Part shown: positions 49,678 to 53,472 of the stretch, one piece after another
How the letters are laid out: the number at the start of each line of letters is the position of its first letter
Position numbering within the stretch: position 1 is the first letter of the stretch
Source of the DNA: Quadrisphaera setariae
GTDB taxonomy: Bacteria > Actinomycetota > Actinomycetes > Actinomycetales > Quadrisphaeraceae
Assembly: GCF_008041935.1 (NCBI RefSeq)
Contig: NZ_VKAC01000001.1
Location: 558,001 to 622,000 of the forward strand
Direction: 5' to 3'
DNA length: 64,000 nucleotides
Made by a program: the position numbers and the translations under genes
The notes under the pieces: generated by a model
Told to the model about the DNA's origin: nothing
The model's database searches: none
What the model saw: only the letters and a program-made list of their open reading frames with translations

Positions 49678-50880
49678 GTGTCCGGTGAGCACCCCTGGCG
49701 CTGGCGGCTGGCCGCAGCGGCGTTCGCGTTCTGGGCCACGATGCTCGGCACCACGCTGCCGACCCCGCTCTACGGCCTCTACACGCAGCGCCTCGGGCTG
49801 TCCGCCCTGCTGCAGACCACCGTCTTCGCCGCCTACGCCCTCGGCGTGGTCGCCGCGCTCGTCGCCGCCGGGCAGGCCAGCGACAGGTTCGGCCGGCGCC
49901 CGGTGCTGGCCGTCGGCCTGGGCTTCGCCGCGGCGTCCGCCGTCGTCTTCCTCCTGCCGCCGACGGTGCCGGGGCTGCTGCTCGGGCGGGTGCTGTCGGG
50001 GGTGTCCGCGGGCCTGTTCACCGGTGCCGCGACCGCGCTCGTCTCCGAGCTGGCACCCCCTCGCTCGGCCCGCGCCGCCTCCCTCGTGGCCACCGCCGCC
50101 AACATCGGCGGGCTCGGCTCCGGGCCGCTGCTCGCCGGCGCCGTGGCCCAGCTCGACTGGGCCCCGCTGGTGGTGCCCTACGCGGTGCACCTCGCGCTGC
50201 TGGCGCTGGCCGGGGCCGCGCTCGTCGTCGTCCCCGAGACCGTCAGCGGACCGGTGGGGGAGCGCCCCGCCTGGCGCCCGCTGCGACCGGCCGTGCCGAG
50301 CCGGGCGCGGGCGGCGTTCGTGCCGGCGGCCGTGAGCGGCTTCGCGGGGTTCGCCTGCCTCGGGCTGTACTCCGCGGCGGAGCCGCGCGTGCTGGGCCAG
50401 CTGCTGGACGTCAGCGCCCCGCTCGCCGCCGGAGCCGTGGCAGCGCTCATCTTCGCGGCCTCGGTGGGCGGCCAGGTCGCCACGGCGCGCCTGGCGCCCG
50501 CGAGCGTGCTCCCCGCCGGCTGCGCCGCCCTCCTGGCGGGCACCGCTCTGCTCGCGGCGAGCCTCGAGCTGGTCTCGCTGCCGCTGCTCCTGCTCGCCAC
50601 CGCGGTGCTCGGTGCGGCGCAGGGCGCGTGCTTCCGCGCCGGGGTGGCCGAGGTGGGTGCGGCGGCACCGCCGCAGCGCCGGGCGGAGGTGGTCTCCACG
50701 CTGTTCGTCGTCTTCTACGTCGCCATCTCCGTGCCCGTGGTGGGGGTCGGGGCCCTGGCCGACTCCGCGGGGCTGCGCGTCGCCGTGCTCGCCCTGGCAG
50801 GGCTCGCGGGCGGGCTCGCGGCGGCCGCCCTCGTCCTGCTGCTCGTGCGCCGCCGCCGGACCGCGGTGACGCAGGGGTAG
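49678..50880 (+). CDS. MFS transporter
   Basis: 400 residues, about 12 transmembrane helices. The MFS loop 2-3 signature is GQASDRFGRRPVLAVGLGFA, and the motif-C-like helix 5 reads ATAANIGGLGSGPLLAGAVA, which suggests a drug/proton antiporter of DHA1 type. The substrate is unknown. GTG start at 49678. It is followed by a SAM-IV riboswitch, which controls the next transcript, not this one. Confidence 0.9.
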   Translation: MSGEHPWRWRLAAAAFAFWATMLGTTLPTPLYGLYTQRLGLSALLQTTVFAAYALGVVAALVAAGQASDRFGRRPVLAVGLGFAAASAVVFLLPPTVPGLLLGRVLSGVSAGLFTGAATALVSELAPPRSARAASLVATAANIGGLGSGPLLAGAVAQLDWAPLVVPYAVHLALLALAGAALVVVPETVSGPVGERPAWRPLRPAVPSRARAAFVPAAVSGFAGFACLGLYSAAEPRVLGQLLDVSAPLAAGAVAALIFAASVGGQVATARLAPASVLPAGCAALLAGTALLAASLELVSLPLLLLATAVLGAAQGACFRAGVAEVGAAAPPQRRAEVVSTLFVVFYVAISVPVVGVGALADSAGLRVAVLALAGLAGGLAAAALVLLLVRRRRTAVTQG

Positions 50881-50952
50881 GGGACGCGCGGCCGCAGGGA
50901 GGGCGGAAGGGGCTTGACCCGCCCCGCCGGGTGTCCCTACGGTGATCGACGT

Positions 50953-51067
50953 CGGTCATGAGTGGCAGCGGCAAGCCCTGGCTCGCTGTCCAGCAACCCC
51001 CCTCCGCGGCGGGGTGCTCCAGGTGAAGACCGGGCAGGACGCAGCCGCGATCCTGTCAGCGCGAGGT
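50953..51067 (+). ncRNA. SAM-IV riboswitch
   Basis: GGTCATGAGTGGCAGCG, then CAAGCCCTGGCTCGCTG, CCAGCAACCCCCCTCCGCGG, CGGGGTGCTCCAGGTGAAGA and CCGG match the actinobacterial SAM-IV aptamer core block by block. P1 is CGGTC (50953-50957) with GACCG (51028-51032); the pseudoknot side continues to AGCGCGAGGTC. TCCTGTC (51051-51057) is exactly complementary to GACAGGA (51083-51089), which contains the ribosome-binding site of the leader ORF, with a GTCCC/GGGAC hairpin in between. That suggests translational control by site sequestration. Confidence 0.9.
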
Positions 51068-51096
51068 CCCCCAGAGGGACGAGACAGGAGCTCCCC

Positions 51097-51186
51097 ATGA
51101 GCCTTCCTCCCCGCACGTCCGAGGTCCTCACCCGCAGGCTCGTCGTCGACCTGGGCCGGACGTCGTCCACGCGCTGTCGCGCCTGA
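51097..51186 (+). CDS. Cys-containing leader peptide
   Basis: 29 residues, ATG start with AGGAG seven bases upstream. The C-terminal part RLVVDLGRTSSTRCRA fits the actinobacterial putative leader peptides found before sulfur-assimilation genes (consensus R..VDL.R.SS..CR). The single Cys codon is TGT, a rare codon here, at position 27 of 29. About 78 C-rich, G-poor bases follow before the next gene, a layout compatible with a Rho-dependent attenuator. This points to control by cysteinyl-tRNA level, on top of the SAM riboswitch. Confidence 0.75.
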   Translation: MSLPPRTSEVLTRRLVVDLGRTSSTRCRA

Positions 51187-51264
51187 CGACGCCACCGAGC
51201 CCTCCCCCCGACGACCACCCTCCCGGCGCCCCCGCGTGCGCCCCGACGACCTCCGGAGCACCCG

Positions 51265-52611
51265 ATGACCCTCCTCGACGACGCCCTGTCCAGCACGTCC
51301 TCCCGCACGGCGCCCACCTCGACCGCGTCGACCGCGTCGACCGCCGGCACGGGCCCGGTCCGCAGCGGCCGGCCCGCGGTCGGCCACCTCATCGCCGGCG
51401 CCGAGCACTGGCGCACGTCACCCCGCCCCTCCGACGCCGCGGGCTGGCTCCTGCGCGCCGAGGACGTCGCCGCGCAGCTGCGCCGCGGCGCCGTCGAGCG
51501 CGACCGCGCCGGCGGGCACCCCCGCGAGGAGGTCGACCTGCTCAAGGCCTCCGGCCTGGTCACCCTCCTCGGCCCGGCCGAGCACGGCGGAGCCGCCCAG
51601 AGCTGGGAGACCGCCCTGCGCGTGGTGCGGACCGTGGCCCGCGGCGACGGCTCGATCGGGCAGCTCCTCGGCTACCACTACCTGTGGGCGTGGGCGGCGA
51701 GGCTGGTCGGCACCGAGGAGCAGATCACCGCGGTCGAGCAGCTGTACACGGCAGGGGAGCTGCTCTTCGGCGGAGCCGTCAACCCCCGCGACGGCGACCT
51801 CGTCATCACCGAGGACGGCGACGAGCTCGTCTTCCACGGCCGCAAGTCGTTCTCCACCGGTGGCGTGGTCTCCGACCTCACCGTGCTCGAGGGCGTCGTC
51901 GACGGCACGGACACCCACGTCTTCGCGATCGTGCCGACCGACCAGCCCGGCATCGTCTTCAACGACGACTGGGACAACCTCGGGCAGCGGCTCACCGAGA
52001 GCGGCTCGGTGCGGGTCGACGGGGTCCGCGTGCCCTGGGCGGCCGCGGCCGGGTTCGTCGACGGGGTGTTCCAGCCGCTGACGTACAACACGCTCAACGT
52101 GCCGACCATCCAGGTCGTCTTCGCCAACTTCTACCTGGGCATCGCCCAGGGTGCCCTGCAGCGGGCCGCGGAGTACACCCGCACCACCACCCGCGCCTGG
52201 CCGTACGGCGGTGACGACAAGGAGTCCGCCACGCAGGAGTGGTACGTGCTGGAGGGCTACGGCGAGCTCGCCACGAAGCTGTGGGCCGACGAGGCCCTGC
52301 TCGACGCCGTGGGCGCCGAGGCGAGCGCGGTGCTCCACGCACCGCGCGAGGGGCTCACCGAGCGTCGCCGCGGTGAGCTGGCGGTCCGCATCGCGGCCGC
52401 CAAGGTCCGCACCGTCGACGACGGCCTGGAGGTGGCCACCAAGGTGTTCGAGCTGACCGGAGCCCGGGCCAGCGCCAACGCCGTCGGGCTGGACGTGCAC
52501 TGGCGCAACCTGCGCACCCACAGCCTCCACGACCCGCTGCCGTACAAGAAGCGGGAGGTGGGGGGCTTCGTGCTGCTCGACGAGGTGCCCGAGCCGACCT
52601 GGTACACGTGA
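51265..52611 (+). CDS. acyl-CoA-dehydrogenase-fold flavin monooxygenase, SfnB/DszC-like
   Basis: 448 residues. An acyl-CoA dehydrogenase fold with a variable 60-residue N-terminus. RRGAVERDRAGGHPREEVDL starts the helical domain, then SIGQLLGYHYLWAWAARLVG, the flavin region FHGRKSFSTGGVVSDLTVLE and the C-terminal WRNLRTHSLHDPLPYKKREV. The THSLHDP end is typical of FMNH2-dependent sulfur-scavenging oxygenases (SfnB, DszC, SsuD-partner type), not of true acyl-CoA dehydrogenases. The riboswitch and leader support a role in desulfurising organosulfur compounds. ATG start; CCGGAG lies eight bases upstream. Confidence 0.85.
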   Translation: MTLLDDALSSTSSRTAPTSTASTASTAGTGPVRSGRPAVGHLIAGAEHWRTSPRPSDAAGWLLRAEDVAAQLRRGAVERDRAGGHPREEVDLLKASGLVTLLGPAEHGGAAQSWETALRVVRTVARGDGSIGQLLGYHYLWAWAARLVGTEEQITAVEQLYTAGELLFGGAVNPRDGDLVITEDGDELVFHGRKSFSTGGVVSDLTVLEGVVDGTDTHVFAIVPTDQPGIVFNDDWDNLGQRLTESGSVRVDGVRVPWAAAAGFVDGVFQPLTYNTLNVPTIQVVFANFYLGIAQGALQRAAEYTRTTTRAWPYGGDDKESATQEWYVLEGYGELATKLWADEALLDAVGAEASAVLHAPREGLTERRRGELAVRIAAAKVRTVDDGLEVATKVFELTGARASANAVGLDVHWRNLRTHSLHDPLPYKKREVGGFVLLDEVPEPTWYT

Positions 52612-52622
52612 CCTGCTGACCG

Positions 52623-52674
52623 CGCTCGTCGTCGTCCTGGGCCGTCCCCGGGGGACTCAGGACGACGACGAGCG
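52623..52674. terminator. 17-bp stem terminator between convergent genes
   Basis: CGCTCGTCGTCGTCCTG and CAGGACGACGACGAGCG form a perfect 17-bp stem with an inner GTCCC/GGGAC stem, exactly filling the gap between the convergent oxygenase and hisN stops. Confidence 0.9.
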
Positions 52675-53472
52675 TCAGCGCCGCTGCAGCAGCCCCAGCA
52701 CCTCGTCGTGCAGCAGCCCGTTGGTGGCCACCGCGTTGCCGCCGTGCGGACCGTCCTCACCGGCCAGCGACGTGAACCGGCCGCCCGCCTCGGTCACCAC
52801 CGGGACGAGCGCGGCCATGTCGTACAGCTCCAGCTCGGGCTCGCAGGCGATGTCCGCGGCGCCCTCGGCCACCAGGACGTAGCTCCAGAAGTCGCCGTAG
52901 CCGCGGGTGCGCCACACCTTCTTGGTGAGGTCCAGGAAGCCCTCCAGCCGGCCCGCCTCCTCCCACTCCCAGATCTCGGAGTGCGACAGGCTCGCGTCCG
53001 ACAGGGCGGCGACCCTGGACACCTGCAGCCGCTTCGCCGAGCTCAGCCGCGGCCCGGTGTACGCGCCGGTGCCCTGCGCCGCCCACCAGCGCCGGTTCAG
53101 CGCCGGGGCGGACACCACGCCGAGCACGGGCACACCGTCGTCGAGGAGGGCGATGAGCGTGGCCCACACGGGTACTCCGCGCACGAAGTTCTTGGTGCCG
53201 TCGATCGGGTCGACCACCCACTGGCGCCCCGAGGAGCCCTTCGAGACCCCGCTCTCCTCGCCCACGAAGCCGTCGCGGCTGCGGGTGCGGCTCAGCTGCG
53301 ACCTGACGATCTCCTCCGCCGCCCTGTCGGCGTCGGTGACGGGGGTCAGGTCGGGCTTCGTGTCGACCACGAGGTCGCGGGCCTTGAAGCGGGTGGTGGT
53401 GAGGTTGTCCACGGCGTCGGCGATGACGTGCGCGAGCCTCAGGTCGTCGTCATAACCGGGCACACCTCGCAC
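52675..53472 (-). CDS. hisN: histidinol-phosphatase (inositol monophosphatase family)
   Basis: 265 residues. IMPase-family motifs: GFVGEESG (Glu/Glu metal site), WVVDPIDGTKNFVRGVPVWA (DPIDGT) and ELYDMAALVPVVTEAGGRF (WD-type motif as YD). The sequence fits HisN (Rv3137-like), which removes phosphate from histidinol phosphate. GTG start at 53472. The next gene is divergent, with only 28 bases between the starts. Confidence 0.9.
   Translation of the reverse strand: MRGVPGYDDDLRLAHVIADAVDNLTTTRFKARDLVVDTKPDLTPVTDADRAAEEIVRSQLSRTRSRDGFVGEESGVSKGSSGRQWVVDPIDGTKNFVRGVPVWATLIALLDDGVPVLGVVSAPALNRRWWAAQGTGAYTGPRLSSAKRLQVSRVAALSDASLSHSEIWEWEEAGRLEGFLDLTKKVWRTRGYGDFWSYVLVAEGAADIACEPELELYDMAALVPVVTEAGGRFTSLAGEDGPHGGNAVATNGLLHDEVLGLLQRR

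Follow-up and report, generated by a model that had tools for sequence, protein, structure and literature searches.

Organization of the locus

The window, a 64,000-nt stretch of the Quadrisphaera setariae contig NZ_VKAC01000001.1, carries on its plus strand a SAM-IV riboswitch aptamer (50954-51067), a leader open reading frame (51097-51186) and a monooxygenase gene starting at 51265, in that order, with the leader ATG at 51097 lying 29 nt past the 3' end of the SAM-IV match. The features of the locus are the following:

50914..50943 (+): promoter candidate TTGACC, 18 nt, TACGGT, kept as TTGACCCG...CCCTACGGT in three orthologs
50954..51067 (+): SAM-IV riboswitch aptamer (RF00634, 95.3 bits, E 4.5e-16)
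51033..51057 (+): aptamer hairpin P5, GGCAGGA (51033-51039) with TCCTGTC (51051-51057), from the cmscan structure line
51060..51063 (+): candidate 3' strand of pseudoknot PK-2, CGCG, with its partner in the P3 loop; placed after P5 following PMC6890682, the pairing being our own reading
51066..51080 (+): small hairpin GTCCC-CCAGA-GGGAC between aptamer and ribosome-binding site (RBS), from comparison by eye
51083..51090 (+): leader Shine-Dalgarno sequence (SD) GACAGGAG, same letters in three orthologs
51097..51186 (+): leader ORF of 29 codons, MSLPPRTSEVLTRRLVVDLGRTSSTRCRA, ATG 51097 to TGA 51186, from ORF reading, motif and the below-cut-off NF042934 match of an ortholog
51175..51177 (+): candidate control codon UGU (Cys), ten residues after the V of VDL; UGU in 30 of 31 leaders
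51187..51264 (+): leader-enzyme spacer, C-rich and G-poor (45 C, 19 G), rut-like, GC skew -0.41
51265..52611 (+): DszC/SfnB/MsuC-like flavin monooxygenase, 448 aa, from family and PDB matches
52623..52674 (+): 17-bp inverted repeat 3' of the enzyme gene, candidate transcript end, seen by eye in the sequence

An Rfam scan of the window returned a single SAM-IV aptamer (50954-51067, plus strand, E 4.5e-16), and its 95.3 bits stand against a gathering score of 38 for RF00634. An earlier note on this DNA had proposed a SAM-IV riboswitch with all aptamer blocks present; the match is significant and covers the full model (1-116), bearing out both points. The aptamer, which would bind SAM, is one of ten SAM-IV copies in the Q. 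setariae genome, and its helix P5 and pseudoknot PK-2 are named here as in PMC6890682. The promoter candidate was missed by the promoter scan, whose consensus is of the E. coli type, and a scan for T-tailed terminators returned nothing at the inverted repeat.

The gene at 51265-52611 encodes a protein with acyl-CoA-dehydrogenase-type domains (Pfam). Its scores against the NCBIfam models for DszC (NF043015, 257.4 bits, equivalog cut-off 850) and SfnB (TIGR04022, 244.2 bits, equivalog cut-off 430.9) both fall below the curated cut-offs, so that the SfnB/DszC-like oxygenase of the earlier note holds in the sense of a relative, not of an assigned SfnB. The best PDB match is 6u76, a methanesulfinate monooxygenase (E 5e-68), and the enzyme is predicted to be an organosulfur monooxygenase.

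Most of 80 loci encoding related enzymes had neither a SAM-IV riboswitch nor a Cys leader by the scans used. SAM-IV was detected by profile at three of the 80 (L011, L012 and L050), and at L050, from Arthrobacter sp. H14, it precedes the enzyme gene by about 790 nt, with another ORF between. Cys leaders without SAM-IV by profile were present 1.1-1.4 kb upstream of the enzyme at six Saccharopolyspora loci (L054, L066, L070, L076, L082 and L085); a gene of about 370-420 codons lies between leader and enzyme at L054, L066, L070 and L085, and by its start it encodes an LLM monooxygenase at the last three of these. At the Amycolatopsis locus L075 a leader without SAM-IV is found about 110 nt upstream of the enzyme match, and the leader candidates near enzyme loci L056 and L072 were rejected as false. 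A second SfnB-like enzyme of the Q. setariae genome (L010, G000:C1:140521) is preceded by SAM-IV but not by a leader of this motif. Just upstream of that enzyme gene, and overlapping its start, is an ORF of 12 codons that contains a TGT codon and ends in ERCR.

Conservation and family of the leader peptide

The closest of the 80 enzyme loci belong to Streptomyces sp. NP160 (L011), at 89% identity, and to Quadrisphaera granulorum (L012), at 86%. Across the three orthologous loci (window, L011 and L012) the alignment is close in the promoter-like TTGACCCG...CCCTACGGT, in the aptamer and in both RBS and leader, and the Shine-Dalgarno sequence GACAGGAG at 51083-51090, which includes the GACAGGA that the earlier note had read as the RBS of the leader, is identical in all three. 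In the small hairpin preceding it, comparison by eye shows that L012 has GACCCC...GGGGTC, with both strands changed from U-A to A-U. Between the window and L011 the leader differs at one position in 90 nt, while the spacer is identical at 48 of 78 positions and different at 30, which argues that the leader is not a chance ORF. The comparison with L012 yields 17 nucleotide changes in the leader (six at first, four at second and seven at third codon positions), with six codons changed silently and eight non-silently, and we therefore claim no proof from codon bias for this pair. Conservation in two further Quadrisphaera-type genomes, together with recurrence of the leader motif on the sense strand only (11 of 143 against 0 antisense, see below), speaks for a real 29-codon leader as first proposed. 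The locus was seen in three of the six genomes of the genus; in the other three (G010-G012), the window-region matches among those listed are short or cover the riboswitch part only.

The window leader returned no NCBIfam or Pfam match and falls outside NF042934, the 'putative leader peptide' family, by its curated cut-off of 27 bits. The Cys-rich leader families Ms5788A (NF042933) and Ms4527A (NF042936), each with a cut-off of 45 bits, gave no match either for this leader, which has one Cys. The L012 ortholog scores 19.6 bits against NF042934 (E 5e-4), under the cut-off, and leaders behind SAM-IV at other loci score 40.2 (L199), 33.7 (L112), 33.3 (L104), 27.1 (L226), 25 (L006) and 11.8 bits (L230), with no match for L116. 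Weak matches alone are uninformative, since a search of the Q. setariae genome at E up to 10 gave five matches, none above cut-off, and NF042934 at this threshold also fires in 10 of 14 control genomes. By our own description of NF042934-type leaders (a short ORF with a basic pair, VDL and, near the stop, a Cys, located upstream of a sulfur gene) the window leader fits. Although itself below detection, it thus resembles the known family, as judged from the motif and through its ortholog.

Recurrence of SAM-IV riboswitches followed by Cys leaders

The comparative analysis covered 143 SAM-IV instances distinct in their first 90 nt, drawn from 13 family genomes including that of Q. setariae, 98 class genomes (56 of them with a match) and from the enzyme loci; copies repeated identically in sister genomes were merged, four instances missed by the quick profile were added by coordinates, and two lack full downstream sequence. 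The strict leader motif occurs within 350 nt downstream of SAM-IV on the sense strand in 11 of the 143 and on the antisense strand in none, and upstream of SAM-IV in 0 of 74 on either strand. It occurs in 9 of 2630 background tiles, seven of which we read as genuine leaders. Five further instances (L159, L160, L207, L221 and L239) passed a loose leader filter and were rejected as false.

The 11 tandems represent nine different loci: that of the window, L011 and L012 (one locus in three species), L006, L104, L112, L116 (at its second aptamer), L199, L210, L226 and L230. L006 is the other SAM-IV tandem of the Q. setariae genome, and L284, found later and outside the 11, adds another Cys-bearing one. 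The genes after the leader differ. At L006 the product is an amino-acid-type ABC permease (glutamate/aspartate 116 bits, cystine 103 bits, both below cut-off), at L104, L226 and L230 an SBP_bac_5 binding protein, at L112 a TauE/SafE protein and at L199 an MsnO8-type LLM monooxygenase; the gene at L210 has no Pfam match.

A DNA pattern for the leader that is blind to the riboswitch matched 43 places in 35 of 148 genomes. The 30 places fetched contained 12 distinct short leader ORFs, with SAM-IV upstream of L006 only, and one of the 13 unfetched places (G052:C16:2377) is the L199 tandem. An exact SAM-IV-plus-leader pattern, too strict for an estimate of frequency, matched 15 places in 14 of 394 genomes, with SAM-IV confirmed by profile only in the window and at L284. 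By these counts, the tandem is a minority arrangement for both elements but not one of chance. The search for the same order in other actinobacterial genomes that the earlier note had called for thus returned it at nine loci with SAM-IV and, as described below, at three with SAM-I. Separately, SAM riboswitches were observed in back-to-back divergent pairs about 100 nt apart at L003/L009 (G000:C11:49524 and 49730), L093, L199 and L320; these pair SAM-IV with SAM-IV, but SAM-I with SAM-IV at L320.

A position-specific UGU codon

Among 35 short VDL ORFs, taken without requiring a Cys, 31 have Cys exactly ten residues after the V (V+10). The exceptions are L072 (likely a chance ORF), the Cys-less L231 and L233, and L245. 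The V+10 Cys codon is UGU in 30 of these 31 leaders, all from high-GC actinobacteria, whereas the remaining Cys codons of these leaders comprise 12 UGC and two UGU (Fisher p 4e-8); the 31 leaders share ancestry and do not amount to 31 independent events. The non-Cys codons of these leaders have a GC3 of 0.92, and the ORFs of the window (n = 25) use UGC 156 times and UGU 23 times. Six leaders behind SAM-I riboswitches, one of them already among the 31, likewise have UGU at V+10. Since the codons neighbouring V+10 vary, the constraint looks like one of codon choice and not of RNA pairing. The UGU at V+10 points to a probable codon-level mark of the sensor position in this leader family, and a wobble-read UGU may be more sensitive to a shortage of Cys-tRNA.

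Cys-less relatives of the leader

Two of the 143 SAM-IV instances, L231 and L233, are followed by a Cys-less relative of the leader. A pattern derived from these copies located a related leader, LTRRLHIDLLRVxSA, in 17 of 121 genomes of one Streptomyces-like genus (g25). Cys at V+10 is absent from all 17: in seven a Cys stands at V+6, and in the other ten the core is followed by none. The stop codon itself occupies V+10 in seven of the 17 (L294, L295, L297, L298, L304, L305 and L309), and all of these except L309 end in ...LTRRLHIDLLRVSSAY-stop and lie 70-94 nt past a SAM-IV match. L295 and L297 correspond to L233 and L231, respectively, and L308, with Cys at V+6, lies 150 nt past SAM-IV. Rfam confirms SAM-IV at L294, L298, L304, L305 and L308, and RF00634 also brought in the L295 and L297 places; the remaining ten of the 17 showed no SAM-IV on the leader strand by profile, and at one of them, L299, Rfam gave no match either.

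Scanning the ORFs after six of these leaders revealed a GST domain above the Pfam cut-off at L294, L298, L305 and L308 and just below it at L304; the ORF after the L302 leader, which has no SAM-IV, had no Pfam match. The GC skew of the 80 nt after the stop is negative in all 17 and weaker than in the Cys-bearing leaders (-0.03 to -0.36). That the six ...SAY-stop peptides keep the core without a Cys favours a role of the peptide itself and argues, for that branch, against sensing by a Cys codon alone. Leaders of this type behind SAM-IV raise the question of what the peptide really senses. As a side observation, a Streptomyces lividans leader listed as the methionine-dependent metL leader (PMC8079986, Table 4) ends in GARCMCRRMCAF, with three Cys, and may be a Cys leader instead of a Met leader.

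SAM-I tandems and the direction of the switch

A SAM-I (S-box, RF00162) riboswitch lies directly before another leader of the Q. setariae genome (L243/L324, G000:C16:13818-13912), at 47.5 bits against a cut-off of 44.4; the Rfam scan placed none before L241, a further leader of this genome. The gene after the L324 leader starts like, and is presumably, an O-acetylhomoserine sulfhydrylase gene. Among 30 SAM-I loci examined, from 42 matches listed for the 13 family genomes, six have a leader downstream and none has one in antisense; four of the 30, L327 included, score just under the Rfam cut-off. The six tandems (L315, L320, L321, L324, L325 and L327) amount to three different loci, because L315, L321, L324 and L325 carry a near-identical leader in four genomes of the genus and evidently represent one locus.

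The leader Shine-Dalgarno sequence overlaps the 3' strand of helix P1, which reads GATGGAGG or GATGGGAG, in all six SAM-I tandems; 5 to 8 nt past that strand, again in all six, stands a start codon in the leader's reading frame. In the alignments of five of the six, GATGG pairs with CCATC in P1 and the last bases of the SD are partly paired. The four leaderless SAM-I loci taken for comparison have GATGGAGG in two cases and an SD located after P1 in the other two. SAM stabilises helix P1 in this riboswitch class, and with the SD inside P1 it would be expected to close the leader RBS at the SAM-I loci. These tandems provide the best evidence that the leaders may be direct riboswitch outputs and that SAM would turn them off, and from them, by analogy, we infer the same OFF direction for the SAM-IV copy of the window.

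The earlier note had suggested that the leader, if real, is the direct output of the SAM-IV riboswitch, and that TCCTGTC (51051-51057) can pair with GACAGGA (51083-51089). The first part of this view is supported by position: in six tandem leaders whose SD could be recognised, three being orthologs, the start codon lies 19-44 nt past the aptamer, as against 15-80 nt for the starts of 70 ordinary genes, so that the leader occupies the place of an ordinary regulated gene, and the geometry of the SAM-I tandems agrees. The pairing fared less well. The 7-nt complementarity exists, but TCCTGTC is the 3' arm of aptamer helix P5 in the cmscan alignment, complementarity runs of this length occur in 8-12% of shuffles of the three orthologs, and covariation is absent from these orthologs, whose letters are identical. 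Over 121 SAM-IV loci, runs of 7 occur at 12 (the three orthologs included) and runs of 8 at six, and a run of 7 is absent from all five other SAM-IV/leader loci analysed (L006, L104, L112, the second aptamer of L116, and L199). The pairing belongs to the unconstrained minimum-free-energy (MFE) fold in the window; in the two orthologs it costs 2.2 and 2.9 kcal/mol relative to the minimum. When forced, it gives a fold 2.6-6.7 kcal/mol below a forced aptamer-like fold, energies that leave out SAM and two pseudoknots, and this difference would fit an ON switch. If formed, the pairing would make the leader RBS inaccessible when SAM is absent, whereas an ordinary OFF switch works the other way round. 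After the shuffles and the constrained folding, it is retained as no more than a possible switch.

Folding at the window locus gave no SAM-dependent closure of the leader RBS, the trend being if anything reversed: mean openness of the SD over the three orthologs was 0.16-0.39 in the bound-like segment and 0.06-0.08 in the free one. A general approach to predicting the direction of SAM-IV switches from SD openness with and without the P5 and pseudoknot strands was dropped, as no consistent shift emerged across six leaders and 70 genes, a set that left out L006 (which has no SD of at least four consensus bases), L210, L226 and L230 (probably for want of the GACC anchor used) and L104.

A C-rich spacer downstream of the leader

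The spacer between leader and enzyme (51187-51264) has a GC skew of -0.41; equally low values occur in six of 4918 overlapping window tiles, some of which share sequence with the spacer itself. Neither its sequence nor its length (78, 78 and 125 nt in the window, L011 and L012) is conserved, and the skew of the L012 spacer is weaker (-0.17). The 80 nt after the leader stop have a mean skew of -0.28 in the 11 SAM-IV tandems and also in 22 other leaders, with negative values in 33 of 33, against a mean of -0.01 (sd 0.13) for window tiles. As a control resembling 5' UTRs, the 80 nt before 77 enzyme homologues are mildly C-rich (mean skew -0.12); values of -0.28 or lower occur in 16% of these upstream regions and in 2% of window tiles. 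A C>G bubble downstream of the leader stop, one mark of a Rho-dependent attenuator, is found at the window locus, and the C>G stretch after every leader measured would suit Rho-dependent termination. As a trait of the leader family, the skew lends support to a putative Rho mechanism.

A consensus scan of positions 50860-52760 detected no intrinsic terminator, a GC-rich hairpin followed by a T run, in the region separating leader and gene. An attenuator hairpin between the leader and the enzyme RBS was also considered and rejected, as folding leader and spacer of the three orthologs gave no consistent stall-dependent opening of the enzyme SD. The study that predicted candidate Cys leaders before cys genes in 2005 suggested a Rho mechanism, with the caveat that the polyY motifs were not conserved and the prediction was weak (PMC1262725), whereas the cysteine genes of Mycobacterium smegmatis are described as being under translation attenuation in PMC13236596, which cites Canestrari 2020.

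A proposed two-signal relay and its alternatives

These observations are best accommodated by a two-step relay responding to sulfur starvation through two signals, in which the SAM-IV riboswitch gates the leader and the Cys leader gates the enzyme, a reading whose chances we consider evenly balanced. In the first step, SAM would keep the leader RBS closed, and scarcity of SAM would open it. In the second, a ribosome on the leader would read the single UGU near the stop. With plentiful Cys-tRNA it would finish and leave, and the bare C-rich spacer would let Rho stop transcription before the enzyme gene; with scarce Cys-tRNA it would stall beside the spacer and shield it, and the enzyme would be made. 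Rho would also prevail on an untranslated leader, and the enzyme would consequently be produced only when SAM and cysteine are both low (NOR logic). A single Cys codon would be a weaker sensor than the mycobacterial Cys runs of PMC1262725, which counts against the relay, as do the folding results at the window locus, the mild C-richness before enzyme homologues, the weaker skew of the L012 spacer, the lack of Cys at V+10 in the 17 related leaders and the rarity of either element at the 80 enzyme loci. A tentative extension, which we regard as somewhat unlikely, is that one and the same leader module has repeatedly been taken up as the output of SAM riboswitches from two classes, giving Actinobacteria a dedicated SAM-to-cysteine relay, and that this module goes beyond a hungry codon: its nascent RR-x-H-V/I-D-L-x-R-x-x-S, at a fixed distance of ten residues, would help to arrest the ribosome at the UGU or, in the Streptomyces-like Cys-less ...HIDLLRVSSAY-stop form, at the stop codon located there, making it a riboswitch-gated, tunnel-assisted arrest peptide.

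The first step might run the other way, with SAM stabilising P5, freeing the leader RBS from TCCTGTC and turning leader translation on; a leader being translated would then repress the enzyme except at low cysteine, so that the enzyme would be off only when SAM and cysteine are both plentiful. Presence of the TCCTGTC:GACAGGA pairing in the window MFE fold, its cost in the orthologs (2.2 and 2.9 kcal/mol) and the identity of its letters in the three would fit this order of events, as would the M. tuberculosis metE uORF, whose translation suppresses MetE (PMC11260477). We nonetheless judge it unlikely: the pairing does not rise above shuffles (0.08-0.12), its run of 7 is missing from the five other loci and it shows no covariation in the three orthologs, P5 is transcribed before the RBS, and OFF is the direction indicated by the SAM-I tandems within this bacterial family. 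Fairly unlikely, too, is an arrangement in which the two controls act in parallel, the riboswitch on transcription or RNA stability and the Cys leader on the enzyme RBS by translational attenuation, the leader then not being an output of the riboswitch. Such attenuation has been described for M. smegmatis cysteine genes (PMC13236596), and each element is also found alone at or close to related enzymes; yet the leader start sits where an ordinary SAM-IV-controlled gene would begin and the SD overlaps P1 in the SAM-I tandems, while the spacer is not conserved and folds into no consistent stall-dependent RBS structure.

That the leader is a relic or a chance ORF, leaving the riboswitch to control the enzyme across a 200-nt UTR, is very improbable. 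The window leader taken alone lacks a family match and has a single Cys, as such an ORF might, but the motif count (11 of 143 sense against 0 antisense), the one change in 90 nt relative to L011 next to a spacer identical at just 48 of 78 positions, and the UGU at V+10 in 30 of 31 leaders all argue against it.

Relation to known systems

In E. coli tnaC, a ribosome stalled at the end of the leader shields the adjacent rut site from Rho, and the spacing between peptide core and stall site is fixed. The likeness to the relay lies in the proposed shielding of a rut site by a stalled ribosome and in the fixed spacing; tnaC senses tryptophan through the nascent chain, and the comparison is one of analogy only. 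The tna operon is also the analogy drawn for Cys leaders in PMC1262725.

The Q. setariae aptamer scores far above the threshold of the SAM-IV family (RF00634) and differs from the ordinary arrangement in that the first ORF downstream is a leader peptide, not the enzyme. With known actinobacterial Cys leaders (NF042934, NF042933 Ms5788A, NF042936 Ms4527A; PMC1262725) the window leader shares an RRxHVDLxRxxSxxCR-like motif near the stop, a sulfur gene downstream and a pyrimidine-rich spacer; here, however, the leader stands behind a SAM riboswitch and has one Cys instead of a run, and the choice of UGU goes unmentioned in the passages of PMC1262725 that treat these leaders. The Mbox-uORF of M. 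tuberculosis, with Rho-dependent termination (PMC12810186), and the uORFs of B12 riboswitches (PMC11260477) likewise place a small uORF between riboswitch and gene as part of the control. These uORFs are not described as amino-acid sensors in the relevant parts of the two papers, whereas the uORF here would add a second sulfur signal. SAM-I/T-box Met tandem logic gates (PMC9481103) also combine SAM with a tRNA-charging signal in one 5' UTR, but there a T-box reads the tRNA, and here a leader undergoing translation would do so; neither 'leader peptide' nor 'uORF' appears as a term in the main text of that review. A Xanthomonas SAM-I riboswitch that also senses uncharged initiator tRNA (PMC7270179) unites two sulfur-related inputs in one leader RNA, with the difference that one expression platform binds the tRNA; the abstract of that report mentions no leader peptide.

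The leader family, SAM-IV, riboswitch-to-uORF control with Rho (PMC12810186) and SAM/T-box gates (PMC9481103) are thus already known. The statement of the earlier note that each element is known alone is right for each, and is to be amended in that control of a uORF by a riboswitch is also known for other riboswitches (PMC12810186, PMC11260477). As for its remark that it knew of no description of the combination, the literature searched, which covered part of the field, contained no report of a SAM riboswitch joined to an amino-acid leader ORF, and a SAM riboswitch feeding a Cys leader would be new as a variant on known parts.

If the relay is true, a single mRNA would take in two sulfur inputs one after the other and need no regulatory protein. 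Recurrence of the arrangement in several actinobacteria with different target genes makes it look like a design instead of a one-locus curiosity, and the position-specific UGU points to the probable sensor codon of the leader family.
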